64,000 nucleotides of DNA from NCBI GenBank assembly GCA_014871385.1, contig CM026426.1, forward strand, positions 76,187,524-76,251,523. Reading direction: 5' to 3'. Both the position numbers and the translations under genes were made by a program. This document shows positions 7,641-64,000 of this stretch, piece after piece; within the stretch, counting starts at the first letter, position 1; each line of letters starts with the position of its first letter. The notes under the pieces are model-generated. The model was not told the DNA's origin. It was given only the letters and a program-made list of their open reading frames with translations, and searched no databases. This DNA comes from Ceratodon purpureus (Eukaryota > Streptophyta > Bryopsida > Pseudoditrichales > Ditrichaceae).

Positions 7641-7645
7641 TTGTT

Positions 7646-15130: not shown

Positions 15131-15175
15131 TTGTTGGTCTTAATTCTAAACAATGTAGAAATCCCCCTGAGGCCA

Positions 15176-30161: not shown

Positions 30162-31960
30162 TTTACCCGCACTTGGGATTAATATTCCACCTCAAGTCAC
30201 TTACTTTTATATGATGTACTTGTAAACTGAAAAATTTGATTATTTACTGTCGCACATGTTTCACATGATAAACATTAAAACTAACCGGCAGTTGTGAACT
30301 GTAGGGGTAGGATGTCAATGTGGCTTCAATTTCCTCATCTTGTGGGGCATAGAGAACTACGCACGGATGATCTTGTTAATTTTTATTTCCGCATGATTCA
30401 ATTGTTTTCATTGTTTCGGTGAAACAAAATGCCGCATAATTATGGAACTATCAATTTTAGAGCAAGGCTGAGAACAGTACTGAATTTTTTCTTGAAGCCT
30501 CCACCAAGTATGGAGTTCATGTGGTGGATGTGTATGAAGTGGGTGGCCTTGGGAAAAACACTGTATGTAAAGCAAAAAACCTAGGTCAGTATGCCGGATA
30601 TAATACGACGGAGTGTGATGTTGAATTCGGTGGGCTCAGCCCAGAGGAGTTGCAGAAACTGGTGTTGCATGAGCTTACGCAACTTAATCCCGACCTTGAG
30701 AAAGACTTGCGAGGAGACAAGGTACTGTCCATTCGTATAGAGTGTGCAACGTCTTATTTGAAATGTGCATCATATGGTATACGACGGATTTTTTCGGGTT
30801 GTATAGCAAGGGAATGGAGGAGACCACGGTCGACCAGGGAGTACTTGATTCTGATGAGGTGCGGTCGTGTCTCCACCTGATGTTTTATGTTTCGCTACTG
30901 TGAGGATTATCTCCCTTTTTAATTTTTTTTGTGACTAATTTCGTTCTGACTGCAGTTAGCATAAAAGTGATTGTAGCTGCTATACCTCCGTGATCGACGA
31001 GAAAATTAAATCCATCATCCTGGATCACATATATGGATTTAAGATTCGAATATGTCCCCTTCATCACTTTGTAAGTTTCGTACTTTGTATTTGATAAATC
31101 TGAGGTTATGATAAATCTGAGGTTATGATAAATCTGAGGTTATGATAAATGATGCCAGTGGAGGCTATTCTACAGTCGCTTCTCAACCAGTTTGTAGAGG
31201 GACTGAACCCGTGGGACAACATGCCGCCCTCATCAGGAGAACCATGGACATCACCGGTTCTATGCACCATTCAAGACATGGAGAACGTAAGGGTTACGTG
31301 CCCAGACATCTGGGACATCATTGACCGCAGTCCGGAGTACGCGGCGCTGCTACTTGCGCGGTGGGACTACGGTCAGGAGCTGAGGAGCCATTGGGAGACG
31401 AAGACCGTGTAGCAGGAACATCTCTTCCGCTACAATTGGGGTGTTTTCAGCAAGTCGTGGTGGATGGCAATCCCCATAACCGACCGCAGGCTTCGAACGT
31501 CCCGCCTCTCCGACCTAACCTGCGAGGAGATGAGTTATTTCCGGGCGCTCCTCCAAGCACACAGAAACAAGCAGCTGTGGGTTGAGGCACAATTCACTCT
31601 ACAACCTTGAGGCTTGGCTTCCAACTAACATGCCGCAAACATGGGTCAGCTGTACACGTGTTCACACCACACCGTGCCTTGGAAATAACACACACCGTCA
31701 ATAAACCCTAACAATAGCATTTGATTTCCGGCCAAGTGTAAATTACTTTTACAGTGATGAGTGAATGTAAGTGTACAATTTTTTTACATTGAGGAGTGAA
31801 TCGGAGGTTGCGGTAAATGTTATTGGACTCAGTAAATATTACTAAGTCCTCGATGGGGTCCCCAATTTCTATATCCCCGGTGGTCTTAATTGCCTCGCCC
31901 TCGAATAGCCGTGCCAGCGCGAGACTGGCCCCACGGCCCTCCTTCACCTTCTTTTCCTTC
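30162..31960. other. Spacer with two unrecognised open segments
   Basis: Open segments at 30521-30880 and 31149-31412 on the plus strand have acceptable amino-acid composition (for example CDVEFGGLSPEELQKLV; NVRVTCPDIWDIIDRSPEYA). I do not recognise a family. Both could belong to a second, TnpA-like CACTA gene or to a captured gene. No CACTA 3' terminus was found. The remainder looks non-coding. Confidence 0.35.
31093..31150 (+). repeat. 17-bp tandem triplication
   Basis: The unit GATAAATCTGAGGTTAT is repeated three times without change (31093, 31110, 31127), followed by a partial fourth copy. The exact identity of the units suggests a recent slippage event. Confidence 0.95.
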
Positions 31961-32463
31961 CGAGACTGATTTCTTCCGCAAGGTCTCGTGTTTTTTTTAA
32001 TCAAAACCTGCCCCTATCTTGCATGGGCCCGCTGCCACGTAGGTCATGTTCAGCCCCTTGCCACCTTGGCAGTCTCGAGACCCCTTTTGACCTTAGTAGT
32101 CTAGAGACCCCCCTTGCCACCTCGGCACTCTTGCCACATCACCTATAGTCTCGTCTGTAAGGGCCTCATCCGAGAGGAGGTATACGAGTGGAGACGCACT
32201 TCCCTCTCGCCATTTTTGTCTCTCTAAAGCGGTGTTGAGACACTAGTAGATTCCTTTAGGGTTATTGTAGAGAGCCTGAATTCAAAGTGTGATATGGATT
32301 TTTCGGCTGCATCCTTTGTTAAACAAGATGTCGTCGATCTTGACGCATGTTAGATTGGTACATACGAGCGACAGTTCATTTTACGGAATCTTATTCCACT
32401 TCAGCTCATTCGAGACTAGGTCCAACAGTGCCCTGACGGTCCTTTCACAAACAAGGATCTGAA

Positions 32464-35120
32464 GTGGGATTACAGGGGTTTGAAGCGTGGTGCAAGCGTT
32501 GCGAGGACTTTGTGCTAGGCGAGTCATCGAAGCGGTCTGATGTGCAGACGAAGTTCATCAAGCGCGAGACAAAGAGACACAAAGGATCCCATCTGCGACT
32601 GGACACTCCATTGTTGTCCATCAGGTATGCTATATTTTGCTTGGTTGTGTATTATTAATTTTTTTTACTGTAGAGATGGGTCTCGTGCATAGTCAGTAAA
32701 GATGGGTCTCTTGCATGGTCAATAGAGATGGGTCTTGTGCATGGTCTATAGTAACGGGTCTCGTGCATGATTCTGTAGTAATGGATGTCGTGCATGATTT
32801 TGTAGCGATGGTTCTCGTTCATGATTCTGAAGTGACCCTTTCGTTGTCTATTAGACTGGAATGTGAGTTCGAGCCTCAAGACAAGTGTGGCAATGTTCTG
32901 GAAGTCACTGAAGAGATGCTGACGCAACGACAAAAGTATACAAAGAAAAAAAAAAAACGTTCCAAACGGGCGAGGTCGGTGGGGACCGAGACTCTCAGCG
33001 GCCATGAAGGGGGGTCTCGGAAGCGTGGCTGCAAGTGTGCCATTTATGTGAGACAGATGTTTTATCTCCAAGACGTTGCACAAATTGTCCTCCAAAATCC
33101 TTGCTACACGAATGGTGAAGGACTGATTGTGCACTGTATCGTGAAGGATGGCAAGACGTCTCGCTTCATGTCCAGCATGTCTCCCAAGACCAGAGCATTC
33201 GTGGAAGAGAACCTGCGTCTCGGTGTCCCGATTGCGAAGATTAAAAGCATGCACATTGAATTGGTGTTGAAACTGCGGGCTCAGGGCGCCCCTCCCTCTC
33301 AGGATCACTTCATGAAGGACTTGGACATTTGCAACATAGCAATGAAGGTGAATCAAGCTGTGTACCAAAAGGACGAGAACGACGCTGAATCGGTCCGCAT
33401 GTGGGTTCATGCAAATTGAGACAATGTATTCTACTATCAAGAATCGAACTCCGGCCCTGTTCCGAGATCTTTAACCGGTGACAACATGCCATTCGTTATA
33501 GGCATTCAAACTAAGTTTATGTTCCGAATGATGCTTGAACACGGCCAAAACAGTGTCGTCTCGATTGATGCGACGTTTAGTACAAACGAGAAGAAGGTAA
33601 GCTGTTACTCGGTCTCGTATCAAGAAGGTAGGAAAACCAAATTTTTGTATCTCATATATTGGCGAGACAAATCTTAACATGTGCTATGATCTTTTCAATG
33701 CAGTTTCCACTATATACCATGATAATCTTTGACAAATGGTAGAATGGATGCCCTGGAGCTTACGTAGTGACGTCTCGCAGTAAGCAGTTGGATCTTGCTC
33801 CGTGGATGCTAGCCCTGAAGACCAAAACGGTTGCAGCTTTTCCTGAGTGGCGTCCAAATTGCTTCATCGTCGACGATGCCTAGGCCGAGATAAACTTCAT
33901 CCGGTAAATTTTTTAAACTATTTCCCTCCAGTGGATTTTTTTTAAAATTTACTTATTTGTTTCACCCTTCGTCTTTCTTCTTGTTCTTATTCCTCTTTTG
34001 TTTATTTTTCTTTATAATTTTTCACCCCTCCTCTTTCTTCTTCTTCTTCTTATTCCGAGACAGTGTTTTTTTTTCACCCTTCTCAATTCTTCTTGTCTTT
34101 AATCCCTTTTTATTTATTTATTTATTTTTACTACTCTTCTTCATATTGATGTTTTTTCAAGACAATTTTTTTTTTTTTTTTTTTTTTCCTCCACCCTTCT
34201 TCTTTCTTCTTGTCTTTAATCCCTTTTTTAATTTTCTTTTTCACTCTTCTTCTTTCTTTTTGATTGTATCCCAAGACAGAGTCAATTTGTTTTTTTGTTT
34301 CATCCTTATCTTTTTTCTTGTTCGTATTTCCGAGACAGATTCCCTCTTCTGTATCGTCTCATTTTTTTCCATTCCGAGACGCAAGCACATATGGCGCAGA
34401 TGCTTGGTGTTTCTCTGCGTATGGCATGTGCGTCGGGCATGACAAAAAAACGCTTGCTCCAAAATCAAAGGAATCGTCACGCATGCATGGGCACTTCGCA
34501 AGCTCGATAACCTCATATACCTCTCAGAATCACCTATACCGGGGATGCCATTACGGGAGTATGCAAGACATAGATTTGCTTTTATCATAACCAAAGTGTC
34601 TGGTGATGCTGCGTTCTAGAGCTATGTAGAAACAACATGCATGAATAAACTTGACATGTAGGTGACGGGCAATCGCAATATCCTACATGCAAGGCAGGAT
34701 ACGAATGCAACAATCTAGTCGTCCCATACTAATTTAAAGGCAGTGTAAAGAGCGTCTCGGGAAAGGCTTGTAGGGAGACGTGTGGACTGACTTAATGATG
34801 AGTTGACGAATGATGTCATAAACCGATACGATTTTAACGCGTAAATAAAAGAGAACGGCTTCCAAAGCAACCGAAAGAAGGAACGTGTGGTAATAAACTC
34901 ACTTTTACAAGCCCAGAAGATCCCGGACCACTGCGTCTCACTTCCAACTGAAGTTGGAGAACCGGCTTATGTTTGTTCTAGCAAGAGGCCACACCTTCGC
35001 TACGGTGTGCACAACCCCGAGACGGAGTGGAGATGTTGTGAATTACCTCACTCAATGAAGGGCAATCTATGCAAACATCACTTAAAGGTGCTTAGGATGT
35101 TGCGCCCTGACCTTGCTTAA
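32464..35120 (+). pseudogene. MULE transposase with SWIM zinc finger, interrupted
   Basis: MULE transposases belong to the Mutator superfamily. The N-terminal open segment has WCKRCEDF and a basic His-rich patch (TKRHKGSH), possibly a zinc finger. 32870-33660 gives a basic tract of K/R, then FVIGIQTKFMFRMM and the first catalytic Asp in VVSIDATFSTN. After a small intron-like gap come FPLYTMIIFD, YVVTSRSKQLDLAPWMLALK and CFIVDDA (second Asp, about 33870). A T-rich intron of about 450 bp follows, then the CVWHVRRA motif (about 34420) and the SWIM-type signature WRCCEL ... GNLCKHH (about 35030-35075), ending at TAA 35118-35120. Stops at about 33418 and 34440 and elsewhere show it is inactive or needs splicing. 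A coiled-coil tail may continue to 35600. Confidence 0.78.
33930..34370 (+). repeat. T-rich/polypyrimidine intron with tandem-like TTC-rich units
   Basis: Between the CFIVDDA and CVWHVRRA parts of the MULE gene lies a stretch of T, TTC and CTT runs with a 22-nt T homopolymer at about 34166-34187. The phrase CACCC-TTCTTCTTTCTTCTTG-type recurs about four times, indicating tandem growth. Despite the low complexity, CGAGAC words remain intact at about 34057, 34330 and 34375. Confidence 0.75.
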
Positions 35121-35390
35121 GGAGACATTGTGAAGGTGTGCGGGACTCTGTATTCTACGTCTCGAGGCGGTTTATTGCAGCTGGTTTAGTTCCCCGAACT
35201 ACCCAAATTCGAACTTGAAGTACAAGCTGAGACATGACGCGAGCCTTCCCCGGATACCGTCTCGTGGGAGGCCAAGCTAGAAGATTCACGTCCACCACCC
35301 CCCCCTACACGAGACGAAGACAAGCGACTCGACGACAGCATCGACCGTCTCGGAGCCGCCATCCATGGCTGAGCCTCAAAGCACCCTCTC

Positions 35391-35603
35391 GTGAAGAGGC
35401 ACTTAGAGTATGAGCTACGCACTATGGATTTGAGACACACTGCTATGGAGCTTCAAATTGCACGAGGTGTGCTTCATCCAGCACAGAGGGAGGCTGCACA
35501 ATTCGTTGGAAACGACGCAAACGGTAGCATGACTCTCCGCCGGCGCCGAGACTTCTTAAGTAGCCCTTTCAGCTCCTCTAGGAACACGAGACAACGCCTC
35601 TGA
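35391..35603 (+). CDS. Possible helical C-terminal exon downstream of MULE gene
   Basis: An open segment with a helical, charged composition (HLEYELRTMDLRHTAMELQIA) ends in an Arg/Ser-rich tail. In-frame sequence upstream (from about 35190) includes a Pro-rich and acidic stretch, broken by stops. It could be the last part of the MULE gene or a separate small protein. No family is recognised. Confidence 0.25.
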   Translation: MKRHLEYELRTMDLRHTAMELQIARGVLHPAQREAAQFVGNDANGSMTLRRRRDFLSSPFSSSRNTRQRL

Positions 35604-35906
35604 ATTTGCAAGAGGTATCTACATTCAATTAAAATCACGGGTGATTTGTGTAGCGGTATTCTCTGCACAAAACATCCATGAACGCAGCAGAGTGACAATA
35701 GGAAGTTAGGAAGGCGGGGTTGGGACAATGAAATGATGAACCATAGAAACTTTGATGTAGTGGATTTTAATTCTTATACAAAAAATGGTATGAGTCTCGC
35801 AATGACTACTTACCCTATCTAGTCTTTGCTCTACATCTCGCTATACAAAGACCAAAAAAATTTCTGCGTATGCACGAAAAGGAAAATCTATGCTTGATAT
35901 ATACAC

Positions 35907-38900
35907 CTAAACCGCGCAGGAGAAGCTGTGTGTACTAAAACCCCCCCAAATCCTATATAGCAAAAAACTTAGACTCGGCGTGGATTCCTCATGACGGAAT
36001 CGAGGAGAGTCTTGAGTCTCGCCCGATAATCCGTCCTCAACTTCAAATCGGCTGCCTCCCTTGCCTTTCTGTCCACCTTCTCTTCTGTCTCTGGAAATAG
36101 AGGTGCCCGAACATCGACATCCCGTATGTCTCGGTTGGGCCCAAAACCTCCTCGAGACAATATATGATGCGATCACCTTCCGGTCTCGCCCAAGTCGGTG
36201 GAATGACTCGCCGGTCATCCACTTTATTCTTGTAGGTGTTAGGCACATATTGTGGTCTCGGATACCTGTCATCTGACCTGACCGTTTCGCAGTACAGGAG
36301 CTCCAAAAAAAAACGAGCCGAGACAGCTCCATCCCATTGCAGCCATTCCATACCGTCCTAGATGTTTGACGACTTGAAGCGGTTAGGGTCTCGCACTTGC
36401 AATCCCCGGGACTACAAGTACTGCAAAAACATAGTCATTGGCAGGTAGCCGCACTCCCAATCCGCTTTTTGTCCGTACCGTTCAATGATCTCCATGGCCG
36501 CGTGACGAGACTGACCCACTTCCTCGAACCTGGCCTAAAACCTCACGCTACACCCCATGCAGACCTGACAATGAGGACGAAGTCATCGAAGGCCTTCGTG
36601 TGGTGTACATGGTTCCGGGTCCCCATCAAGTACGTCCCCTTGTTGTCCACAACTAAAAGACTCCAGTGTAGCTTGTCCACGTACGAAATGATGAGATTGT
36701 TCTCTCTGCCCGAGACCCCTTCTAGCCACTTAATTCCAACGTCGCCCATCCACTCCCAACTGTCTCAATTTTTGCAAATGAAAAAGAGAAGGTATCCAGT
36801 CAGCTAAGCACTTGCGATGTGGATCTTCTCCTTATCCCACTTAGGAGACCGTAGTGCCAATGAACGGAGTGCAAGCTCTTGAAAATGGTCTTCCAACGTT
36901 TGAGATGCCTTCATTATGCACTCCCAGTCTTCTGGATTGGTGGGACTACAACTTGGCGCCGCATGTCTCCCGAGAAGAACACTGCCCAGTCAATCTCTAC
37001 GGTCTGGCTTCCAGACGTAGCTCCATATGGCTTCTTTCTGGGCTTCAACTTGATGTTCGGCTTCTTCAAGATAGCGGACCATGACGAGGCTGCCACTTCT
37101 TTCACGAACTCCTTTCCCATTTCTTCCAGTCTCGTAGTGTTGTTTCGCAATGGAACCTTGGGATTCATGAATCTGTACTTAAGCTGCCTTGGCGGTCTGA
37201 TTCGGAACACCGTGGGGTCTCGTTCCGCCTATGTTGGTGTACTCCGCTGTACCAACGCGAAACCTGAATCTGGGGTCGCTCTAGCGGTGACGGGCTGCGG
37301 TACCATAGTGTCTCGCGCGCGTCCAAGTTTGTCATAGGCTGCAGCAAGCATCTGCATGGGTCTCGAGGAACCTTCTCGTTCTGCCTGACCACCGCAGAGG
37401 TGGCATCCTCCGAGACAGCAGACTGCTGTTCGTACACATGTGGTACAGAGGATGCCACCCCCACACGTATCTTTCCACGTCCACCCTTTGGTCTCGTCCC
37501 ACCGACGTACTTGCGCGCGTACCTACTCCTCCCTCTCTCGATGGACAGGGTTCTGCTTTTTGGCCTGTTTCTCTGGATGCTTGGTAATTTTGGCCAAATT
37601 AGCGAAATGCCTGTGCATCTCAACGCATCCACTTCGTGTCATACTAGCCTTTGCATCTCCACCATCCAACGACAATACGGTGTCATTCACATTCTGCACA
37701 TCCTCGACCGTGTACCTCCCCTGTTGCTGCATAGGAGCCAAACATATAAGTATACGGAAAATCCCAGAACATGTTACATGAATTCTGACGAGACACCCTA
37801 AGCCATCCTCACTTTAGAGTAGTTAAATGTTCACCTTACATTTCAGAGAAGCAAATTTGCCTTCGGCCTAACATAAGGCATCCTCCAAGGTCCCTAGATT
37901 CTGAAAGGCCGAGACCTTCTACAACATCTCCTCAGCTGTCCAGGACGTGCATGCCCTCGTCTCATTTCTCATGAGACGGAACTCCATGAGAAGAATGGCA
38001 AGACCGGTTCTCGGAAGCGGAGTTGGTGGTGGGATGGTGATCTGGGATTTGTGTCTCGGCGTCCTGTTGGAATTGCATGAGAACCTCCTCGCGCTGCAAT
38101 GTTAGGCGCTCCCTCTCCGAGACAAATTCCTCCTCTCCCGCGAATTCACTAGAGACTTGCGAGACAGCTTCCTCGACTACCATGGCATCACCCTAGTAAT
38201 TGGATTCCGTGTCTTGGACACAAGAGTCGACCTTCTTCTTCTTCTCTGACTCGCCGTCTTTGTTGGAGGGCAACTCCTGCTTCTTCTCATTGGCGAGGTC
38301 CTTTGTCTCAGCAACCCTCCTTGACCCTAATGCAAAACTGTTTCGCATTGTCTTTGTCCTCGGCTCGTCTCCAGCCATGCCGTCTCGATTTAAATCCATG
38401 ACTCTCCCCCTGCCATCAGCTTCATCGCTCTGATACTCACACAGGCTCAAGACAGCGGGATCTTCTTGGCCCTTTCCAAAGCCTTCACCACCTATCTGCA
38501 ATCTTGACATGTTTGGCAGTGCATCTCAGAGCGAGACGCGGAAACCCGAGGGAGATGGCGTACTTGGCTCACACCTGCTCAGAGGTTGAGGCAATATGAC
38601 TGGTCTTGCAGGTTCAAGCGAGACAGCACCTTGACCCTACTCGTCCCCTTCGTCTAAGTGCAAGACTCGCTGAGGCTTTCGATTAGCCTTGTCTCGCAAT
38701 TTCTTTGACCTTTGGAATGTGACTTCCTCGAAGTCGTCGTCATCATCTGCGTCGACAACGGGCTCGCGCTTAACCTCATTCTTTGGAATTGTGCGTAGTG
38801 GCTGACCGTCTGGATGCTTTGTCCACCACTCTACGATCAGCTCCCTCAGATTCTCTTGTCCCTTCCAACCAACAGGTTTGGCCAATTCTGCTCCAATGCT

Positions 38901-39070
38901 GTGGGGTAGAACTTCAAACCATTGTGATCCAATCGGCGGTGGTTGTTGAGACGGTGTTTTTGCATCAACTTCTTCCAACTGTGAGGACACTCCTTGCAGT
39001 AAAAAATTTTGTGGTCAAAGAATATTGGAGGCGTGTGACATTCGACGAGCATTCAAGCCCATTCCGCCTG
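35907..39070 (-). pseudogene. ULP1-like (C48) cysteine peptidase gene, frameshifted
   Basis: ULP1 peptidases process or remove SUMO-like modifiers. Reading leftwards from about 39070: a Cys/His/Lys-rich segment (FYCKECPHSWKKL), EWWTKHPDGQPL and an acidic patch (DADDDDDFEEV, 38990-38637); a Lys/Glu-rich coiled region (38510-37962); and a basic segment (37632-37165). A peptidase-like core follows: the His motif KLHWSLLVVDNKG (His codon at about 36663-36665) and, after a frameshift, the Cys motif ADWECGYLPMTMFLQYL (Cys codon 36451-36453), spaced as in ULP1. A C-terminal extension (36351-36043) has WTERQGRQP. The catalytic Asp is not obvious. Multiple stops and frame changes, partly real introns, make the product doubtful. 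Convergent to the MULE transposase and equally rich in GTCTCG/CGAGAC. Confidence 0.6.
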
Positions 39071-39451
39071 GGTCCACGTCTCTAGGTAATGGTTCTTGTC
39101 TATGATGATTCGCTCCTGGACAACTCCGTCTTGCCACAGAATCCTAAGAAACTGCAGGTCAGCGTCGCTGAAAATTTGATGCACCATTCTGTCCTACAAA
39201 TATGAACTCCCTAAAACATGCCATGGGCTATGGTTAGTTGAAGGAAATATAAACGAATAGTCAAAAGTTAGCCAGACATGAGTCAACTCATTCACGAGAC
39301 CCAGGGACCATACTAAAATTGCGTGTGACATTTTCAACGTCGAAAATAAGTCTCGATCATTCATTTAACAAGACTGATGGATATAGAATGATGGTGAACA
39401 CTCCAACAAATACTGCGAGACGCGAGCCTCGGAGAAATAATCCGTACCCCA

Positions 39452-40560
39452 CACTACAACAAATCCAGCCCAATGTGACTATGTTTTATGACTGGAATAG
39501 GGCATAAACCATAATGTGACTTATACTAATTCCAGTCATTTTGAGTCAGTCGCTTAGGACAATCTGACAAGCGGTCACATCGGACATTTTTTGTTCCCGA
39601 TACTGCGTTCCCATGGTGTTTTGGGACCTCAAGTAGGGACCTGCTCTGGGACTTGGGAGAATATGACTGTGTAAAGGCATGTATTATTGACTATACATCA
39701 TCATCAATATGGTATCCATGACTCTTTCCACTTAACAATATATGACTATGTAGAGTCACCAATACGAACTGAGTGTCATGATTGTAATGACTAATTGTAG
39801 TGATGTATTAGTCAATAAATGAATAGATTTATCACCACGCATAGTAGGAAGATGGTGACTAAGTTGAGTCAGACAATGAGTGGAGAAAACACGACTCATT
39901 GGAGTCATATCTATTTGACTACCCATAGTCACAAATACTGAAATAGCTTCTGCCTGATCTGACTAAGCGTAGTAAGTCTTAACTAAAAATATCAACAATT
40001 TTATCACTAGCTATAGTACTGTGCTGGTGACTATATCTAGTCATTTACTTCAAATAATATGACTATGTAGGGCCATATGGTGGTGACTATACGTAGTCTT
40101 CAATGCTGAAATCACGAAATAGACATGACTAAATGTAGTGAGGTGTCAGTGATGTGACTGATGGTTATATCACTACGCATAGTGATGTGGTTGTGACTGT
40201 ATTGCGTCATATTTAGACTTCAACTAATACGACTCTTCAGAGTCATATATATTTTACTACACATAGTCACCCATATCATCTGATGACTACGTAGAGTCCT
40301 TTTATAGTTGTTTATTTCACTACCGTCGGTCAAATTTCAATCTTCAGTCGGTGTTTCAATGACCAGAACTTGACTGTCTGTAGTATAATTTAAACGTATG
40401 CCAGTCACTGGAATCTATCTTTACTACTGTGCGTAGTCAAGGATTTGAATTTTACATTAGGGTGATCATGCGGAGTGGTGACTAATACAAGTCAACGATG
40501 CGGTTGTGAATACTATGTCAAATCATGCAAATGATATTCAAACATTTCGTTGGAAGAGAA
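39452..40560 (+). mobile_element. CACTA-type terminus with subterminal palindrome array (fragment)
   Basis: The segment opens with CACTACAACAAATCC at 39452, matching the usual CACTACAAnAAA start of plant CACTA elements. It is followed by about 1 kb without coding sequence but dense in GACTA/TAGTC, as expected of the subterminal repeats that bind CACTA proteins. No matching opposite terminus was found before the LTR at 40654, so it is either truncated or interrupted there. Which transposase it belongs to is unknown. Confidence 0.6.
39470..40520. repeat. Array of about 15-bp imperfect palindromes TGACTA-N(4-5)-TAGTCA
   Basis: Clear members lie at 39744-39759, 39916-39931, 40028-40043, 40083-40097, 40171-40184, 40231-40245, 40253-40270 and 40282-40297. 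The outer halves TGACT/AGTCA are conserved, while the inner 4-6 bases vary (CTATGTAG, TACCCATA, TATATCTA). I counted about 20 GACTA or TAGTC words in 1.1 kb against about 2 expected. Spacing is irregular, so this is a dispersed palindrome cluster rather than a satellite. It fits paired binding sites for a dimeric protein. Confidence 0.75.
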
Positions 40561-40653
40561 AATTCTCAATCAAACAAGATGCACTTATACTGTTCCTCGA
40601 TCGGTGTAAACTGCTCGGGAGAAGGACTGATCAATGTCAATGAAATCTGTGGG

Positions 40654-41051
40654 TGGTAAAGGGAGGATTTCCTATAAAACCCTAGCCTTCACAACCCATC
40701 AAAACCCTACGAAAACCCAACTAGCTTAGGTGTTGAAACAATCATATAATGCTGGAAACACTCAAAAGAAGTGGAAAAGTGAGTCAAAACTGTATAAGGA
40801 GGGTCAAAAATGCCCCAAAATCACGGTACAGTAGCTCATAAAGTCTCTCCAATCTCTCCTAACTCTAAGTGCACCAGTGAGGAATGATCTCAAAAACCCT
40901 AAAACCTGCCTTAAGAGTCTAGCTGAATTCATCTAGTCGGCTACGACAGAGTTCATCCAGCCGACTGGATGACTGTCGAAGTCATGGATGGAAAACTGAA
41001 AAATGCTACTAGAAACTAGGAAAGGGGAGATTGATAAATTTACGGTTAACA
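40654..41051 (-). repeat. 3' LTR of E1, 398 bp
   Basis: It runs from TGGTAAAGGG to GGTTAACA on the plus strand and aligns throughout with the 423-bp LTRs of E2, with scattered substitutions. It lacks one copy of a 24-bp unit that E2 has duplicated. It is followed by TTATCCCCTTTTTCC, the plus-strand image of a polypurine tract, which sets the minus orientation. Confidence 0.88.
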
Positions 41052-41185
41052 TTATCCCCTTTTTCCGGTAGTTCAGTCTTGAGAACGGGAGGGCGGGGAG
41101 AGAAGAGGGACTGGAAACATGGCCCGGGAGAAAAAAAAATAAAAAATGAAAAAGAAAACAGTAAAACGGGACGATAGCCTAACAA

Positions 41186-44919: not shown

Positions 44920-45342
44920 TGGTAAAGGGAGGATTTCCCATAAAACCCTAACCTTCACAACCCATCAAAACCCTACAAAAACCCAACTAGCAATGGTGCT
45001 GAAACACTCATTCAATGCTGGAAACACTCAAAAGAAGTGGAAAAGTGAGTCAAAACTGTATAAAGAGGGTCAAATCTGCCCCAAAATCATGGTACAGTAG
45101 CTCATAAAGTCTCCTCAATCTCTCCTAACTCTGAGTGCACTAGTGAGGAATGGCCCAAGAAACCCTAAAATCTGCCTTAAGAACCAAGCAGAAATCATCC
45201 AGTCGGCTACGACAGAGTTCATCCAGTCGGCTGCGACAGAGTTCATCCAGCCGACTGGATGACTGTCGGAGCCAGGGATGAAAAACTGCGAAAAAGGCTA
45301 CTGAAACTGAGGGAGGGAAGATTGAGAAATCTCCGGTTAACA
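44920..45342 (-). repeat. 3' LTR of E2, 423 bp
   Basis: It starts TGGTAAAGGG and ends GGTTAACA on the plus strand and reads the same as 56960-57382. It contains three AAACCCTA telobox-like words on the plus strand and a direct 24-bp duplication (45196 and 45220) containing CATCCAGTCGGCT. The second copy forms a perfect 13-bp inverted repeat with AGCCGACTGGATG (45249-45261), a strong hairpin with a 16-nt loop. Confidence 0.95.
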
Positions 45343-54500: not shown

Positions 54501-55921
54501 ACTGTGGGATACCTCGGAGGTTGTGGAGTAGGTGCAGTACTGTGAGGGCCTCCGGGGACAGTAGCTGGGCCGTAGCCTGCTGGGGCAGAGGATGAGGTGT
54601 GAACTGTAGGTCTCCCCCCATAAATCACTTCAGGGACGGATTCCCCAAAAGTGGGTTCTGCTATTCTGACAGGGATCTCTGTATGCTGAGTCGGCTGGGC
54701 AGAGTGATAGGTGTCGCCTGTAAGGTGATCCACATACGCAAGCGGTCGATGGACTGCCGAGGGAGCTGCAGTTGGAAGGGGTCCAGGTGTCTTTCTATCC
54801 TCTGGCACCTCCGAAGTTGGGTCGGCTAAGTAGGGGGTCCTGACCGGAATCCCTTCAGTCTGTTCCTGTTCGCGCTCCCGTCTCTGTTCCTCCCATAGAT
54901 CGTGCAGCTGCGCTAGCTCCTGCCTTTCCCTTTCCACCCTTTGTTGCTCTCGTTGCTGTGCCGCTAACTGCTGAGTGGCTAACCTCTGAGCTGTCTCCTG
55001 GACCCGTCGGTTGAACTCAAGCTCCCATGCAGTCTGAGACGGTTCTGGCGGCCACTGTGGCTCAGTATGCCAGTGATGCAACGACGCCTCGCCCGAGGGT
55101 GCAGCCTGCTGTAAAGCTTCCAATTGCTGGAGGTATTTACCTTGATCAGGCCTGCCGTGAGTGTGGGTCGTAGAAATCTGTCTAGCTCTCTCTCTTCTAG
55201 CTTGTAAGTCGGCTTTGAATGCTTCCACAGCTCGCCTGTCCTCCTCTTCTTGCTCCCACTCAGCCCGGAGTCTGAATTCGTCCAGAAAATGAACATTCCT
55301 GCTGGGTCCACCTTCTGTGGGATTTGCAAGTCCCTGTTCCTGGACTGATCGACTCTTGGTCTCTTCCAGCTTCTGCTTCAAACTCTGAAAAGCAGCAGGT
55401 AAGGTTTCCGGGGTTTGTGGCAGGTGTCCAGGAGAGACTGGTCGGCTGCGCCCCCGAGTGGGCTCTATGCCCGCGTCGGCTCTGCCAGTGACTGTACTGG
55501 GCCACTGGGTTGGTTCTGCGAAGACCTCCTGCGTCTGTCTGCGTTCTTCTCTGAAAGTGTTGTAATCATCTGCAGCAGTGGAAAAATCCCTCCTGAATGA
55601 TGATGTCCTCTTCATGTCTTGATACTTCCAGGGTGTACTAGTTGGGTCAGGCTGGCGGCTCAGCCTATCCCCTTTTTCGAACTGTGTCTCCCCTCCAAAT
55701 CTGCTCTCTCTGGTTCTGCCATCTGATGATGACAGGTCGTTTTCCACCTCCATGTCAATGAGTTCTCCTACCTGCTTAGCCGCACTGCCCTGTGAGCTAA
55801 GTCGGCCATGTCCTTCCGCTGGAGTTGGCTCTGTCGCCCGTTCATCCCGTTGCATGTAGCGTCTGAATCGTTCCCTGGCCTGCCTTTCTGCTCGCAGGTC
55901 ATTTTGGTCCCCCTCCTCCAT
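45527..55921 (-). CDS. E2 Gag-Pol-accessory polyprotein, one in-frame stop
   Basis: A single frame of about 3465 codons starts at ATG 55921. A Gln/Glu-rich leader (to about residue 480) precedes the retrotransposon gag core (about 505-670, [10 protein letters not shown] ... WFDDWL). Two CCHC knuckles follow ([14 protein letters not shown] about 700; [14 protein letters not shown] about 772), then an aspartic protease ([11 protein letters not shown] about 1046) and RT ([27 protein letters not shown]). A TAA at 51416-51418 falls before the RT motif FLDDFTVY. After it come RNase H (HTDASD, TTEKEAL, YVDHMAL), the integrase HHCC finger, the DDE core ([22 protein letters not shown]) and a GPY/F module (WFGPYRV). 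Then come about 500 Pro/Ser-rich residues, a globular domain (about 47,680-47,080), another Pro/Ser-rich part, a coiled coil (about 46,140-45,700) and an acidic tail. Fusion of the accessory region to pol is unusual. Confidence 0.9.
51416..51418 (-). other. In-frame TAA splitting the reverse transcriptase of E2
   Basis: The frame before (…AVNKAFK) and after ([13 protein letters not shown]) the stop is the same, and the two sides are contiguous parts of the RT palm. It separates the MPFGLTNAP motif from the catalytic Asp-Asp motif. A programmed stop is not expected here, since it would split one domain. A nonsense mutation (for example CAA or GAA to TAA) is simplest. Confidence 0.85.
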
Positions 55922-56959
55922 GGATGTTGGTTGTTGACTGTTGAGTTGTTCTGCTGCTTGTATGGTGCTACTTGCCTCTGCTGTTGACTGATTGCACTTC
56001 TCCCTTCACAGTCAGTCGACTGTTCACTGTCCTGAGTCTTCCTGCCAATACAACACTCACAGACCGCAGCCCCCTAGCTGTGTGGCCCGGTTAGTAGTAC
56101 CATCTTTTTCCTTACTGAAAATTTTTACTGAACATGTTCTGGGGTATACTTCCCAGCTGTTTGCTATCCCCTTTTTCGCAGTGTATTATCTCCTACGGAT
56201 TTTTAATCCTGTGGTTAACTGTCCTTACAGTTTTACCTAAAACACAATTCAATTGCAGACTCAAGTACTCCACACTATCCTTCAGTCTGTCCAGGTCCCA
56301 ACTTCGAGATCCGCAAGGCTGACTGAGGTGCCAATCGATATACCCAAATTCAAAATTCAAATTCCTTAACAGCAATTTTTCTGGATCTGTAACTTTGAAT
56401 CTAAAATACTAGGGTTACAGTGACTTACCTTCACCTCCTCTCCCGTGATGAGGTTGCAGATCAGCCTGTATCCCCTTTTTCGATCTGTGAACTGCCCTCA
56501 GTTCACTGTGGTGGGTGATGAAAATTCTGCCTCAAAAAAATGTCGCAGCACCTACGCCCTCCAGTCTGCAACAGGTCCGCTCTGCTGTCACTGCGCTCTG
56601 GACGTGTGCTGGTCTGCCTCTGTAACTGCACCAGTGCCTCCACCTTGGAAACACCTGAGTACTTGTTGTCCTCTGTCTACTGCCCCAGTGATGTTGAGTG
56701 AAAACACCAAAGATTCTGCCAGTGCTGATGGTGCAGCCTGCCCCCAATGCAGACACTTGCAGTGACTCCCAACACCCAATCAAAAACTGTGCAGTCTGTG
56801 AACTTGAGAATGAACAACGATCAGCACTACTAGGAAGTCGTAACAGCTCCTGCTGCACCCCTGCAGCCCTAATGAGTGTACTTTCTAACCCTTCTAGTGT
56901 GTGGACAGCCCCCAAACAGCAGGAGATTCACATGGAACGAACTAGAGCATGGTCGCCAA
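55922..56959 (-). other. E2 5' leader with primer-binding-like site and repeated polypurine motif
   Basis: The roughly 1-kb leader between the 5' LTR and gag has no supported ORF on the sense strand. Directly inside the LTR the minus strand reads T-TGGCGACCATG. The TGGCGACC part is what a tRNA with acceptor end GGTCG-CCA (as in some plant tRNA-Arg) would prime, but the match degrades after eight bases. Two copies of the sense motif CGAAAAAGGGGATA lie at 56165-56178 and 56469-56482. Confidence 0.55.
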
Positions 56960-57382
56960 TGGTAAAGGGAGGATTTCCCATAAAACCCTAACCTTCACAA
57001 CCCATCAAAACCCTACAAAAACCCAACTAGCAATGGTGCTGAAACACTCATTCAATGCTGGAAACACTCAAAAGAAGTGGAAAAGTGAGTCAAAACTGTA
57101 TAAAGAGGGTCAAATCTGCCCCAAAATCATGGTACAGTAGCTCATAAAGTCTCCTCAATCTCTCCTAACTCTGAGTGCACTAGTGAGGAATGGCCCAAGA
57201 AACCCTAAAATCTGCCTTAAGAACCAAGCAGAAATCATCCAGTCGGCTACGACAGAGTTCATCCAGTCGGCTGCGACAGAGTTCATCCAGCCGACTGGAT
57301 GACTGTCGGAGCCAGGGATGAAAAACTGCGAAAAAGGCTACTGAAACTGAGGGAGGGAAGATTGAGAAATCTCCGGTTAACA
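56960..57382 (-). repeat. 5' LTR of E2, 423 bp
   Basis: It is the same sequence as the 3' LTR by direct reading, with the same 24-bp duplication and hairpin. It is followed on the right by the target duplication ATGGA. Being upstream of gag on the minus strand, it should hold the promoter. I could not pick a convincing sense TATA box; a TATAAAG word exists only on the plus (antisense) strand. Confidence 0.93.
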
Positions 57383-58146
57383 ATGGACACCACACAGTTC
57401 CTATCTACCACCCGGGAAGTGGATGTATTAATCCTTCCGTATGGCTAGGTACCGGTCCGGATAGCTACTCAGTGCCAGTTATGGATACGGAAATCATACT
57501 ACAATGACATCACCTTACGGCTGTACGGCATTCTAACTATATCATCTCCCTTCCGGATTGGTTAACAGCGGGACATCCAGCTTTTATCCCATCTACAGGA
57601 AGCGACCGGTCCGTTTCCGGATCCCGATGTACACACGGCCCTCTGTGTCCTTAAGACTACGAGCCCTGCTGCAGTACGTCTCGCCTTCCCTCCGGATACC
57701 TTCCGGGAGTGAGAACCGTCAACACTCGACGCTTGACACCTCCCCAGTCTCTCCGGGCGCTCTCCAAACTATCCCACTGTTCAACACTCCTCCGGAACCC
57801 TACTGAAGACAATAGTACCAACAAACCATTACGGTAACGGACCTGTCAGCCAGCCGGTCGACACAACAAATCCAAAAGTATATTCTCAATTGCAACAACA
57901 AAACGGCGTACAAAACAAGGCCCCAGCCTTGGAAAAATGTCCAGTTGAAATACTTAAACCTATCGATCCTAAAGCGACCAAGTGGCCCACCAAGATCCAG
58001 AAATTCCGGATCTTGGATCCAGGAGTCCCGGACCGGTGGCCGCCTTCTGTTCCTAGTTACTGCCGCTATCTATCCGGATTGACAGCCGGGTGCACTTGAG
58101 CCCCATCGTTAGTCGCTGCCATTTTATCCGGTCCTTATCCTAACTT

Positions 58147-60020
58147 CTACTGCTTGTTCTTATCGAACCGGGGAGTGTGCCGGGTTCCGTCCAACCGTTC
58201 CTTCTTCTGTAATCCCTTCTTCAGCCTCTTTAGCGAGGGGCCTTCTTCCGGAGTATCAGCTGCCGGCTGGTCGATGGCCTTCCGGGAACGTTCTGCTTGA
58301 ACCGCCGGGGATGGAGATCGTGCCGCCACCGAAACTGCGTTGAGATCCACCTGGAGATGTTCCGGAGATCCCTGTACCGGCACGAAGTCTTCCGGTGGTG
58401 GGCCTTGGTCCGGTTCCAAAGGGATGTTTCCGGGGTTAACAGTCTCGATTCCAGCCAGTGTGGGCAGATTGTGCAAGTTGCTCAAAGAATCCGGGATAGG
58501 ATCCTCCAGCGGTTGTCCTAACTCTGGTTGGACTGGCGGGATGGTCGACCGTACCGGAGAGGCTGGAAGTGGCACCTGTGTCGGTTCCCTGGTTGGTGCC
58601 GGTGGTCTGGGCTCCTCCTGATCTGCCGGTGGCTCTGGTGGTCTTGACAGACCGTCCTTTCCGGCACTGATGATCTCCACAAAGTGCCTCATCTGCACCC
58701 AAGTGTCCTTTATCACCTGCGTCCGGTCGTGCATGAATTTCACGATCTTTGAGGTTACCGGATTCGGTTGATGGGTCAAGAAGGCTTGGTAGACGGCGCA
58801 CTGATTGGCCACATCCACCGGAAGGGCTAAAGTGCCCTTGACCTCGACGACCGACTGGATGGCATAGGCTGCTCGGTCACGGGCGGTATTGAAATCCCTT
58901 TGAGCATCACGTACCTCCTGCTTGAACTTGTGAATCCTCTCCCGGTACTGCTCTATCTTGTCGATGTGCTTGGTCTGTGGACTGACTAAGTCCCGGTGCT
59001 TGCGAAGGATACCCAGGCACTCCTCCAACCGGTCCGAGCCCGTAAGGGAAATTACCTCATTAGCCAACCGGCCCTCCATCTGCCTAGTTGACTGTAGGAA
59101 CTGAGCATACACCGACACCTGCTCCGAAAGGTTGACTAAGTCCTGGCACGGGTCCCCGGTGTGCTCCGGTGGTCCGGTGGGTTTGAGGACTTCCGTATTC
59201 AGGGTTCGCTTGGTCGGGGTGGGAGTCCGAGGTGATCCGGACGGCTGCCCATTCTCCGGGCTAGGACGGGGTCTCTTAGCCGGCGTGGGAGAGACCTCGA
59301 TACAATCCTCATCATCGTCTTGATCGGACACCTCTTCCGGTTCGGCGTACTGCTGCAGGCTCTTGAGTTCATCGTACTCCAGGATCTCCTTAGGGTTCAA
59401 CAGCCCCCGGTGACGGTAGAGGTGAATGAAGAAAGACGGAAGGCAGGTGGCCTGTTTCTTGGTCTTCGGAGATTGGCTACCTGCCGGTCGACTATCGTCT
59501 TTATCATGAGGCCCTAGTCTACTGAGAACTCACTGATCATGGCCCCAATGAAAATGGACGCCCACTTGATGGTTATCCGTTTGGGCTTTTCCGGATGAGA
59601 AATAGGGTTCATAGACCCTACGACCCTCCGGGCTTCCGGATCCTTGATGTCATCCAGGTCCCACCCTTCTCTCCAGTCTTCGGGCCCCTTGATATACGTC
59701 CACACAAACTCCCGGGTCTCCGGTGCTGAGATCTCCCCAACTTTCTTGAAACCATACGTATCCCTCCAGTCTTGTGCCGTTCACTGCTCCGGTTCTCCCC
59801 GGATGGTTCCTCGATTGTCGGGGTTCTTGATGAGGATCTCCTGGGCCGGAAGGGAATGTTTCCAACCCCACGCCTTGTCCAATAGGAGCGCACAGCCCAT
59901 GGCATCGAAGGCGGTCCGGAGAAGCTCCTTCTCGTCGTCGTCTACCGGCATCAACGGCATGACCCGTTGTACCCTGAACAACTGTCCTTCCTCCGCGGGT
60001 TCCTTCCCCTTTCTACCCAT
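58147..60020 (-). pseudogene. LTR-encoded accessory protein of E3
   Basis: About 625 codons run leftwards from ATG 60020. The N-terminal globular part has LLLDKAWGWKHSLPAQEIL, DWRDTYGF, WTYIKGPEDWREGWDLDD, WASIFIGAMIS and, after a frameshift near 59510, SFFIHLYRHRGLLNPKEILEY. Next are an acidic stretch, a Pro-rich part, a long coiled coil (EQYRERIHKFKQEVRDAQRD), a second Pro-rich part and a basic tail (SLKRLKKGLQKKERL). A TGA near 59781 and the frameshift break it. From about 59500 to 58147 the frame is intact (417 codons after the internal Met at 59400). Domain order parallels the accessory part of E1/E2, and I infer distant homology. It lies inside the LTR, about 200 bp behind a TATA box. 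Function is unknown. Confidence 0.65.
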
Positions 60021-60223
60021 TCTGCTAAGTCCTCCTCACCGTCACTCCGGTAACACCTGCACGCACGATCCTCACCACAATCCCTCAGCTAACGGAAACA
60101 CTTCCGTCTCACCGTCTCTCTCTCCTACCGTCCCAACCCTAACTGCGCCCTTCGCCGTGGAACACAAGGATCCAGCGCGCCACAAAATGACTAAAGAAAG
60201 GAGGAGCACGGCTGCTCTTCCTC

Positions 60224-60231
60224 CTTTTATA
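60224..60231 (-). promoter_or_regulatory. TATA box in the U3 of the E3 LTR
   Basis: The minus strand reads GGTATAAAAGGAGG, a strong TATA match, 380 bp into the LTR and about 200 bp before the accessory ATG at 60020. A GC-rich inverted repeat (GGAGGAAGAGC / GCTCCTCC arms) follows immediately. Start of transcription about 30 bp further left would place the coding region in R/U5, at the very front of the element RNA. Confidence 0.6.
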
Positions 60232-60610
60232 CCTGCACTCACTCCCGCCCGTTCGTAGCTCATCATGACGGACGGTCGTAACCTTTCATCATTGGACGGT
60301 CGCGGCCGGCGGCGCTTTAATGGTCGCAGCCATTCTTCCCGCGTGCATTGTACCCTCTGGCGGTTATCCTTAAGTCCGCGGTGTCAGGTTTCTGTCACAT
60401 GGACGGTGCTTCCTCTCCTTCGCCTCAGACGACCGGATCTCACCCGGCTGACCTTCCGGTTCTCTTATTTATTTGGCCAACCGTCTTAACCGGTTGTTTC
60501 ACTTATCTAAGTAGTACTTCCGTATTCCTAACACAATATTTTTAAATTTTTATCATTTTCTTACCGGAATTAGTATTCCGGTGTGCAAACTGTGGAAATC
60601 ACTTTCCACA

Positions 60611-60621
60611 TTATCCCTTTT
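60611..60621 (-). promoter_or_regulatory. Polypurine tract of E3
   Basis: The minus strand reads GAAAAAGGGATAA directly before the LTR edge (TGTGGAAAG). It touches the pol TGA stop at 60622-60624. Its similarity to the E1/E2 tract supports the LTR border at 60610/60611. Confidence 0.78.
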
Positions 60622-63600
60622 TCACCCGTGAGCGTCCTCGCGAACGTCATCCGGTCTGTACAGTTTGACCGGGGATCCATTCATACTAGTGTCCATTGGG
60701 TAGCCTTCTAGATTTGAAAGTTGTAATGACCCATTGGATTAAATTTTATCAACGCGGAACGGTCCCATCCACCGAGTATGTAACTTACCCGGAAAATTCT
60801 TGTACCGGCTGTCATAGACTAGAACAAACCCCCCTTCTTCGATCTCTTCGTCTATTGTGATCCGCTTGTCATACACTTCCTTCCTCTTGGCTTGGACCTC
60901 CTTTGTTCTTTCCAACGCCTCCATCCGTTCTTCCTCCAATCGGTCGATAACCTGTAGAAGGTGGTCGAGGGCATCCGTTTTATCTCCGTGGTTGGCTGCG
61001 AGCACCCTCAACGTTTCTACTTCCGTTTCGATGGACTGAAGTACCTCCTGTCCGTATACCAAATAATATGGAGTCCGTCCGGTCGAACTCTTGTGTGCCG
61101 TGTTATACGCATAGACGGCTGAGGTCAGTTTCCGGTCCCAGTCTGTCTTATGTGAGGTAACTACCTTGGTCAGAATCTTACAAATTATTCCGTTGGCACG
61201 TTCCGTCAATCCGTTTGCCTTGGGATTGTACGGTGTGGTCTTCCGGTGTTTGACTTCGTACTGGTTGGTCAGACCGGCCTCCACTTCGTTAAGGAAATGG
61301 GTTCCCCGGTCACTCACTATTTCCAACGGATGGCCAAACCGCATCATTATCCTTTCGAATATGAACCGGGCGGATGTGTCGGCGTCATTCTTCCGGGTGG
61401 CCCTAGCTTCTACCCACTTGGTGGCGTAGTCCGTCGCCAAAATGATGTACCGGTGCCTCTGAGTTCCTAATGGTTGAATTGGCCCAATAAAATCCACTCC
61501 CCATTTTTCAAACGGTGCTTGGGGGACAATGGGAGTTAGCGGCCAGTGATGCCGGACGGCAGGGCTCCTATCCGTTGGCATGGGTCGCATTCTTTTATAA
61601 ACTGATGGACATCACGGTGAAGATGTGGCCACCAGTATCCGGCATCGCGGATCTTCTGTACGGTGATGACGAATGCATAGTGTCCTCCGGCCGGTCCGTC
61701 ATGCAGAGTCCGGATGACCTTCCGGCGATAGATGGGTTCTAGGCAGCGCCGGAGTTTTTCATCCGCCCCTAACTTGAAAAGCAATTCTCCGACTAGAAAG
61801 TACGGTGCCACCCGGTGCTGAAACACACTTTTCTCCTCCCTACTCAGCCCTTCCGGATACCTCAGAGTCCGGAGATAGTTCTTAATCCGCTGAAGATCCA
61901 AGTCCTCCCCTTTGTCCTCCTGAATGCGGTAAACGAAAGTTGCCTCTTCTACGACCGGAAGGTTGCGAGGGTCCGGTATATCTTGTATACTAGTACCAAC
62001 CGGGTATTCTTCCGGAAACTCATCCGGAAATTCCGAAGATATCTCCTCCTTGCTCTTTTCACCCCTTTGTTGTGACAAGTAATCCGCATTGAGGTTAGAT
62101 TTCCCGGATTTGATAATGACTTCGTAATTGAACTCTTGTAGAAGTAATATCCACCTGGCCAGCCTTCCGGACAGGTCCGGTTTGTTGACTAAATACTTCA
62201 GCGAGTTATGATCCGTATAGAAGATGACTTTGTACCCCAATAGGTAATGGCGAAACTTCTTGCACGCATAGATGACGGCTAGAGCCTCCCGTTCGGTTGT
62301 CGTATAATTCTTCTCGGCCGGATTCATCTGCTGGCTGGCATAATAGATTGGTCTTTCCCGGCCCTCGTCATCCAATTGCCATAGAATAGCTCCCACGCAC
62401 CAACTGGAGGTGTCCAAAGTGACATGGAAAGGTTTTGACCAATCCGGTGGTGCTAGTATAGGGGCTGTGACCAACCGTCTCTTCAATTCTTCGAAGGCCT
62501 GTTGACGGATTGCCGTCCAGAGGTACTCCTCTTCCTTCTTGAGCAGCTCCGTCAGTGGCATTGCCAACCGGGCATAGTTCTCAATGAACCTCCGGTAGTA
62601 TCCCACACACCCCAGAAATCCTCTGAGTTCCCGGAGGTTGGTGGGAGCAAGAAGGGCCAACATGACTATCACTTTTGCTACGTCCACTGCTATTCCCTTG
62701 CGGCTGACTATGTGTCCGAGCAAGAGTCCGGCTATCATACCGAAAAAACACTTACCCGGATGGAGCTTGAGCTTAGTCTCCCGGCATCGCTGGAACGTCT
62801 TCTGGAGATAGTCCAGATGTTCCACCCATCGGCTAAACACCGCAAAGTCGTCAATGAAGACTTCCAAGAAATGTTTTAAGAAGTCCTGAAATATGTCCAT
62901 CATCAACCGTTGAAAAGTTCCGGGAGCATTGCATAACCCGAAAGGCATCCGGTTGAAGGCGTAGGTGCCCCAATCGGTGGTAAAAGTAGTTTTCAGTTGG
63001 TCCTCCTTCCGGATGGATACCTGATTGTACCTGGAAAACCCATCTAGGAAACTGAAGCATTCTTGACCGGCCACGTGGTCGAGCACCATGTCGATGAAGG
63101 GTAAAGGAAAATGATCCTTTTTCGTGGCCGCATTCAGCTTCCGGAAGTCCAGACATACCCGGATTTTGACCTTACCATCCGGCCCTGACTTTTTCGGTAC
63201 CACCACAATGGGTGACACCCACTCGGAGTTATTCACTGGATAGATAAAACCGGCTTCCAGCAGTTTATCTAATTCCTCTTTTACCATCATCGAGTATTTT
63301 GGGTTGAGCCGGTACTGCCTTTGGCGAACCGGAACCGCTCCCTCCATTAGGTCAATGTGGTGTTCGCCCAGTTCCGGTGGTATACCCACCAGGTCCGATG
63401 GGAGCCAGGCGAAGACGTCATCGTATTCTGTTAGCAGTTCCAAATATTGCGCCTGTTGCTGGTCCGTCAGTCCCTTCCCCAGATAGAAAGTCCTACCGGC
63501 TTCCGTCTTCACTGCTTCGTAGTCCTCTGGTGCTACAACGTTCTTAACTGGTTCAGTAGCGTCTTTCCCTACGGACCCCGGTAGGGTTGACCATGGTAGG

Positions 63601-64000
63601 TGAGTGGTCCTCAATCCGGATGTCCCTGTCTTAATTGCCCCGGACGTGAACTGCTCCTTAATCCATTCGGAGGTCAATGGGACGCTTGCTTCTCCTAAGG
63701 CCCTGTCATCGTCCTTCCTGACTTCCGGCGGTTGGTTCGGTACTTCTGTCCCATCCGGCTTCTGTTCCGGTACCGGGTTATGGAAACCCAGATCTTCTTC
63801 CGATATCTCCCGAAACTCTTGGACATGATATGACTGCAGGGAATCCGAGTTTTCCGACCCCGTCCAGTCAGAAGTGAACCCATCCGTCTCACTTGTTTCC
63901 CCAAGGTGGAGCTCCGGTTTCCACGATAGCAAAACAGCCGGATCTCCGAAAGTAAAAGCCTTCTTTGCCCAATTTACTTTGACTCCGGCTAGATATAGCC
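60622..64000 (-). pseudogene. E3 pol (RT, RNase H, integrase), partial at window edge
   Basis: The frame enters from beyond 64000. An acidic linker after the protease region leads to RT (VPKKSG, RVCLDFRKLN, MPFGLCNAP, FIDDFAVFS at about 62840), RNase H (TTEREAL, FYTDHNSL) and the integrase HHCC finger (HDGPAGGHY ... CDPCQRIG). At about 61550-61590 a one-base frameshift moves the integrase core to another frame (GVDFIGP, SDRGTHF, NGLTERANG). The core runs to MGPFRVDKI, a TAA at 60739-60741, and a short in-frame tail to the TGA at 60622. Order RT-RH-IN with GPF marks Ty3/gypsy. Unlike E2, no accessory protein is fused after integrase. Two breaks make the copy inactive, but the coding sequence is otherwise well kept. 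Confidence 0.88.

Follow-up and report, generated by a model that had tools for sequence, protein, structure and literature searches.

Mobile elements in the right half of the window

We analyzed a stretch of 64,000 nucleotides of Ceratodon purpureus DNA (C6:76187524-76251523, called the window here; C6 has 110.5 Mb, and the genome searched has 362 Mb in 151 contigs). In the right half of this stretch lie neighbouring mobile elements, namely a MULE-like (Mutator-like) element, the end of a CACTA transposon and the gypsy-type long terminal repeat (LTR) elements E2, with its truncated sister E2b, and E3. The initial annotation had noticed that these elements are dense in different short DNA words, CGAGAC, GACTA, AGCCGAC and CCGG. 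This observation is real, and we extend it by a fifth word, GACCAG, in sister elements of E2. The features are as follows.

31901-39450, strand not assigned: MULE-like element; word CGAGAC/GTCTCG, 57 sites (27 plus, 30 minus)
33420-33677, plus strand: putative transposase fragment of the MULE-like element; ZSWIM1-3 RNaseH-like match below the curated cut-off
36543-36764, minus strand: fragment of the MULE-like element that the initial annotation labelled a ULP protease; weak match
39452-40647, strand not assigned: CACTA end; CACTACAAC terminus at 39452, TGACTA in the subterminal repeats, 18 sites
40648-44919, minus strand: E2b, truncated sister of E2; LTR region 81% identical, 4 AGCCGAC (0.94 per kb)
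44920-57382, minus strand: E2, gypsy-type LTR element; target duplication ATGGA, word AGCCGAC, 35 sites, 30 of them sense
44920-45342, minus strand: 3' LTR of E2, without differences from the 5' LTR; contains three AGCCGAC, some of this within a 24-bp tandem array
45527-51415, minus strand: remaining pol of E2 (RNase H, integrase), extended at the C terminus by about 1400 residues
46910-47749, minus strand: accessory domain of E2, candidate for a protein that reads the word
51416-56005, minus strand: gag and start of pol of E2 in a single frame, terminated by an in-frame stop inside the reverse transcriptase
56960-57382, minus strand: 5' LTR of E2
57383-64000, minus strand: E3, gypsy-type LTR element running past the window end; word CCGG, 128 sites
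58147-59529, minus strand: accessory open reading frame (ORF) of E3, 460 aa, candidate word reader

The names MULE and ULP are tentative since they come from weak matches below cut-off: the transposase fragment matches ZSWIM1-3 RNaseH-like with E 6e-4 and 20.1 bits (cut-off 27.2), and the fragment at 36543-36764 gave four SENP2 chain sequences at E 0.47-0.53, which is not significant. VANDAL-type MULEs are not known to have terminal inverted repeats. Between 31000 and 39480 we found 17 inverted pairs, none of which connects both ends of the element, whose limits are provisional. At 39452-40647 a CACTA terminus and a repeated subterminal motif are both present (this end only), and 55 matches to the CACTA end were located in the genome.

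The limits of E2 were read from its flanks. Its LTRs are identical over a block of 424 nucleotides, which includes one flanking base, and the 5-bp duplication ATGGA flanks both sides; the limits 44920-57382 are therefore set independently of the word. A single in-frame stop at 51416-51418 (minus strand) cuts the long frame inside the reverse transcriptase, although in several genomic relatives the accessory domain is still embedded in an uninterrupted frame of about 3500 codons. E2b is 81% identical to E2 across 539 aligned bases around the LTR. Outside the window C6:76255316-76256015 is a 95% identical copy of E3 positions 57400-58100 and probably represents the other LTR of E3. In E2 and E3 the domains follow in the order reverse transcriptase, RNase H, integrase, which assigns both to the gypsy type; the order of the copia lineage to which Sireviruses belong, with the integrase before the reverse transcriptase, was found in neither.

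Word densities, borders and the excess in coding frames

Word counts are for both strands together, and the first 31.9 kb of the window served as reference. CGAGAC occurs 57 times in 31901-39450 and 13 times in the reference (7.55 against 0.41 per kb), TGACTA 18 times in 39451-40647 and 14 times in the reference (15.0 against 0.44 per kb), AGCCGAC 35 times in E2 and twice in the reference (2.81 against 0.06 per kb), and CCGG 128 times in 57383-64000 and 47 times in the reference (19.3 against 1.47 per kb). The density of the four words in their own elements is 13 to 45 times that of the reference. The hand counts of the initial annotation (about 56, 20, 35 and 127) were right; for GACTA, the form counted there, we find 19 sites in 39300-40650.

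The words switch at or near element borders. When the best single interval for each word was determined across the window, CGAGAC gave 31920-39416, TGACTA 39688-40479, AGCCGAC 40936-57289 and CCGG 57373-63985. The last CGAGAC (39416-39421) is found about 30 bases before the CACTA terminus at 39452, and the first CCGGA/TCCGG of E3 is 73-74 bases from the border to E2. The claim that words change at element borders thus holds at or near the MULE/CACTA and E2/E3 borders. It does not hold for E2b and E2: the best AGCCGAC interval covers E2b as well, and this border is soft because the two elements are sisters.

A word scan without preset words (3-kb steps; 60 order-2 resamples for each word length, which scored at most 11.9 and 11.8; runs of C excluded) gave scores of 30-36 for CGAGAC in four steps wholly or almost wholly inside the MULE-like element, 16 for TAGTCA, and 11-24 for AGCCGAC in most E2 steps; AGCCGAC was not the top heptamer in 46501-49500 and 48001-51000. 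CCGG had no standout score in the 3-kb scan because the trinucleotides of this word are themselves raised; the codon nulls described below do detect it. The highest scores left of 31.9 kb were 14, for an AT-rich heptamer, and 13, inside a tandem array.

Most of the words are not tandem, and the flanks of the dispersed sites are mostly unrelated to each other: near-duplicate flanks were seen for none of the 57 MULE sites, 6 of the 35 E2 sites, 2 of the 128 E3 sites and 2 of the 18 CACTA sites. Small tandem arrays are present in the E2 LTR and in the MULE-like element. We rejected the possibility that the elements had inserted into DNA already tagged. The flanks of E2 LTRs in 20 fetched stretches (L001-L020) contain 6 AGCCGAC in 30.5 kb; this density of 0.20 per kb is somewhat higher than the 0.06 in the left part of the window and far lower than that of E2.

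We then asked how many words the coding frames would hold by chance. The codon nulls were applied to the frames of E2 and E3 and of the sister elements E4 and E5 (see below); the frames of the MULE-like element and of the CACTA end are short or absent. The stricter null keeps protein, codons and dinucleotides (300 shuffles, conservation checked on 5 shuffles per set). With this null AGCCGAC was observed 29 times in the E2 frames (mean 4.1, highest 10), CCGG 92 times in the E3 frames (mean 72.6, highest 82) and GACCAG 40 times in the E4 frames (28.7), and in all three cases none of the 300 shuffles reached the observed count. No element exceeded the stricter null for a word of another element, as at least 52 of the 300 shuffles reached each such count. 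The words are specific to their elements, as had been proposed from the density contrasts, and the enrichment in E2 and E3 persists after correction for codons and dinucleotides. With a synonymous-codon shuffle 26 sense AGCCGAC were observed in E2 (3.5 expected, highest count in 200 shuffles 9) and 92 CCGG in E3 (48.8 expected, highest 65). In a ranking of all words, AGCCGAC came first among the sense heptamers of E2 and CCGG first among the tetramers of E3. The E2 word is used in three reading frames, as EPT/QPT/KPT (8), xAD (16) and SR (2).

Other copies and sister families

Other copies also carry the word of their family; this applies to the copies fetched for the MULE, E2 and E3 families, whose stretches contain DNA beyond the element itself. 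Nine E2-like 10-kb stretches have 18-29 AGCCGAC each, four MULE relatives (9-9.5 kb) 14-48 CGAGAC each, and six E3-type stretches (about 10 kb) 75-199 CCGG each; L034 has 91 CCGG in 5.5 kb. The MULE query gave only six genome matches, and in one relative (L031) the parts that do not align to the MULE-like element of the window still hold 18 CGAGAC, with 2.5 expected. No relatives of the E2 frame were found in viral contigs.

Pairs of AGCCGAC with 2-32 bases between the sites are found 2787 times in the genome as opposed to 837 times for the reversed pattern. On contig C1 there are nine places with the E2 accessory domain, six of which could be compared with the AGCCGAC pairs listed. By eye, a pair lies at most 2 kb from five of these six places, and four of the five belong to elements that are only 62-67% identical to E2 in the accessory domain; for the sixth none of the pairs listed is nearer than 7.7 kb. 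Away from E2-type elements, C1 repeatedly shows a second type of array in which AGCCGAC sites follow each other at intervals of about 22 bases, for example at C1:1260217, 5725264, 8775420, 12867716, 12900856, 16861815 and 21353404.

The word differs between sister gypsy families. Of four 10-kb stretches at fixed C6 coordinates (L041, L042, L043 and L044), L041 holds the gypsy element E4, which shares 68% protein identity with E2 across 1518 aligned codons. In the aligned codons AGCCGAC occurs 14 times in E2 and once in E4, whereas GACCAG occurs 4 times in E2 and 25 times in E4. E5, without AGCCGAC, is 67% identical to E4 over 648 codons, with 14 GACCAG against 16 in E4. It is an insert which splits the E3-like DNA of another stretch (L039, positions 1-1800 and 6792-10000), and L039 1820-6032 contains 30 of the 32 GACCAG of L039 but only 3 of its 112 CCGG. 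In the comparison of E3 with E2, 14 of the 58 aligned CCGG sites fall on identical peptides, and E2 has CCGG at 2 of these 14. The word scan gave nothing strong in L042, and a candidate word in L043 was rejected as a dispersed tag since a 117-bp tandem array explains it; candidate words came up in L044 as well. As GACCAG has no CpG, CpG, present in three of the first four words, is not a common property of the words.

E4 also contains an 18-bp tandem array (L041 353-456, unit TTGGATGAAAACTGGTGG). This array and the 24-bp array of the E2 LTR, on the opposite strand, have TGGATGAA in common, but not the E2 word.

The accessory parts of the gypsy elements would be candidates for proteins that bind the words. 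The E2 accessory domain has 139 genome matches with 59-100% identity, and about twenty of them sit in open frames of at least 3400 residues (138 of 666 candidates were scored). In L025-L029 this domain and its E2 counterpart agree at 70-87% of positions, in part over short alignments; the tail is 73% identical in L025-L027, and the N-terminal part of gag is 89-94% identical in L025-L029. The lower identity of the accessory part indicates that it changes faster. The E3 accessory ORF weakly matches Cullin_binding with E 0.0036 and 18.1 bits, below the cut-off of 27.9. Structure models of the E2 domain and the E3 ORF were too poor to use, with values of 34.0 and 45.5 in the predicted local distance difference test (pLDDT).

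Proposed recognition tags and alternative explanations

We propose that each word serves as a recognition tag of its family in duplex DNA, following a logic like that of the VANC proteins but dispersed through coding DNA. We give this proposal an even chance of being correct; a tag together with its reader is the most likely reading, though unproven. A protein that binds DNA in a sequence-specific manner, and that the element itself probably encodes, would coat the DNA of its own family, and the coating might keep this DNA expressed or mobile, by analogy with the anti-silencing of VANDAL MULEs by VANC. During the active life of a family, copies richer in tags would be favoured, and the word would accumulate at many unrelated coding and noncoding positions via point changes that the coding constraint tolerates. 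A change of the reader would lead to a change of the word between families, and the death of a family to decay of the word.

Could the words instead act in RNA? In the retroelements, sites on the sense-strand RNA might be bound by Gag or by some other protein that packages or protects the transcript, and the sense bias of AGCCGAC in E2 (30:5) and of GACCAG in the E4 frames (35:5) would suit such a role. Antisense words, however, are also raised above the codon null, with 3 against 0.5 in E2, 5 against 1.9 in E4 and 4 against 0.8 in E5 (summed 12 against 3.2, Poisson P 1.3e-4; the individual counts are low, and the E2 and E4 values are reached in some shuffles). Moreover the MULE word is strand-neutral (27:30) and CCGG is palindromic. 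The antisense excess and the strand-neutral MULE word fit duplex DNA and disfavour RNA packaging as the sole cause, so that we regard RNA tags as distinctly unlikely; the sense bias we read as what the proteins permit. The E2 word also matches (G)CCGAC, presumably a motif of the dehydration-responsive element (DRE) type, and the words might be host transcription-factor sites that drive element expression. Each E2 LTR has three AGCCGAC, and arrays of stress boxes are known in LTRs (PMC2829016). Yet 29 of the 35 sites in E2 belong to coding frames well away from the LTRs, the sister family E4 has lost AGCCGAC, and the four remaining words match no single nameable host factor, which makes host-factor sites a very unlikely explanation.

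Codon use, composition or repeated peptides could generate words too. The peptides EPT/QPT, xAD and DQ do recur at the words, and the dinucleotide-keeping null alone yields most of the CCGG in E3 (72.6 of 92). Nevertheless the shuffles never reached the counts of E2, E3 and E4, and on peptides identical to those of E3 the E2 element rarely uses CCGG. The synonymous nulls lead us to reject codon use and composition as the cause in these three elements, and overall this origin seems highly improbable. Finally the words may have arisen once, through expansion of a short repeat or some other past cause, and may have been decaying since. The short tandem arrays already noted for the E2 LTR and the MULE-like element, the fractions of shared sites and the near-matches of the MULE word (both described below) speak for such neutral relics. 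The mostly unrelated flanks of the dispersed sites speak against them, as do the word density of E2, which must be young given its identical LTRs, and the AGCCGAC pairs near elements with an accessory domain only 62-67% identical to that of E2. We consider relics unlikely.

Several observations weigh against the proposal that the words are tags read by a protein. In most comparisons of copies, word sites are shared at a higher rate than k-mers in general (MULE vs L030 is an exception), but this comparison is biased because the ancestor probably already had any site that is present in one of its copies, and survival along one branch is the fairer measure. Binomial values for site sharing have the same bias and were set aside. 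When 12 of the 23 comparisons were re-tested against neutral one-branch survival the excess was gone (lowest P 0.09), and we therefore discarded position-level conservation as proof of selection. Site sharing fits neutral decay from richer ancestors and lends no support to a present-day constraint. The MULE-like element has 89 one-mismatch neighbours of its word with 42 expected and 28 CpG-decay products with 6.2 expected; its words thus look like decaying relics. Pairs of CGAGAC show no excess in the genome (2112 against 3149 for the control). AGCCGAC is absent from two stretches of about 2 kb within E2 (47509-49573 and 55476-57241). Under a codon-pool null GACCAG is expected at 14.9 of 26 in E5 and 14.4 of 35 in E4, and repeated peptides and codon pools account for much of the GACCAG in E5 and for part of it in E4. 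A saturating word is not universal among the elements and stretches studied here, as a general system would imply: the 3-kb scan gave no dispersed word of comparable strength in the first 31.9 kb, and none was found in the non-E3 parts of L036, L037, L038 and L040. The suggestion that accessory proteins read the words found no backing in database matches either. The C-terminal domain of E2 has no Pfam match above cut-off and no PDB match, the E3 accessory ORF has no Pfam match above the curated cut-off, and no reader protein was found for the words of the MULE-like element, E2 or E3. The E2 domain and the E3 ORF are candidates only. VANC (DUF1985) gave no Pfam match in the scanned pieces of E2 and E3 and in twelve MULE pieces, the MULE frames being broken.

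Short words that a recognition process has distributed across coding DNA are known from the DNA uptake sequences of Neisseria and Haemophilus, which are bacterial whole-genome uptake signals, whereas the words described here sit in mobile elements. Closer to our case are the VANDAL MULEs. VANC21 binds YAGTATTAY and the targets of VANC6 carry AGTTGTCC/AC, each protein acts on its own family, and the sites are noncoding and grow through tandem repeats (PMC5735166, PMC10398659). The elements of the window likewise have dense family-specific short words which are rare in other families and differ between related families, and a MULE-like element is among those that bear words. Unlike the mainly noncoding, tandem VANC sites, however, our words extend across coding DNA, their flanks are for the most part unrelated, and the majority of their carriers are gypsy LTR elements.

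The CACTA word is an ordinary subterminal repeat: TNPA-like proteins bind such repeats, which differ from family to family (PMC2613891), and the repeated motif beside the terminus is the CACTA part of our finding. From the known biology of this superfamily the reader at the CACTA end is presumably a TNPA-like protein. The motif of CACTA transposons is limited to the ends, whereas the words of the MULE-like element, E2 and E3 span the element body. Sireviruses have a repeated motif with a CGG-CCG core in the LTRs and upstream of ENV (PMC2829016), hence a symmetrical high-copy motif in an LTR element, and E2 has word arrays in its LTR; Sireviruses are, however, copia elements with the motif in the LTR and pre-ENV region and not in coding DNA all over the body.

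It is possible, though we would not call it probable, that the gypsy LTR elements, the MULE and the CACTA element of this genome each run a system of word plus reader, in which the DNA of a family, including its coding parts, is rewritten with a private word read by the element's own protein, and the splitting of families brings an exchange of words and readers; the word would then even influence the proteins of the element, with the EPT, xAD and DQ runs as a result.

Short-word tagging has already been described for VANDAL MULEs and CACTA ends. The new aspects are the tagging through the coding body of gypsy elements and the different words in sister families of one genome. In the literature searched (titles and abstract openings, with most subscription journals outside the search) we found no report of dispersed family-specific words in the coding DNA of retrotransposons, nor of gypsy coding-DNA words that differ between sister families. 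With this finding one can test how selfish elements maintain an identity of their own in the face of silencing by the host, and it supplies pairs of words and candidate readers for binding and methylation assays.

Three minor observations concern other parts of the window. The left stretch, which has no saturating word, contains a frame for a DDE_Tnp_4 (Harbinger-type) transposase at 15131-16078 (plus strand). Long runs of C are found in 16001-20000, where eight C or G follow each other at 27 places (overlapping counts). In the stretches with the E2 LTRs (44920-45342 and 56960-57382) the heptamer AACCCTA, which we take to resemble the plant telomere repeat, is among the enriched heptamers.

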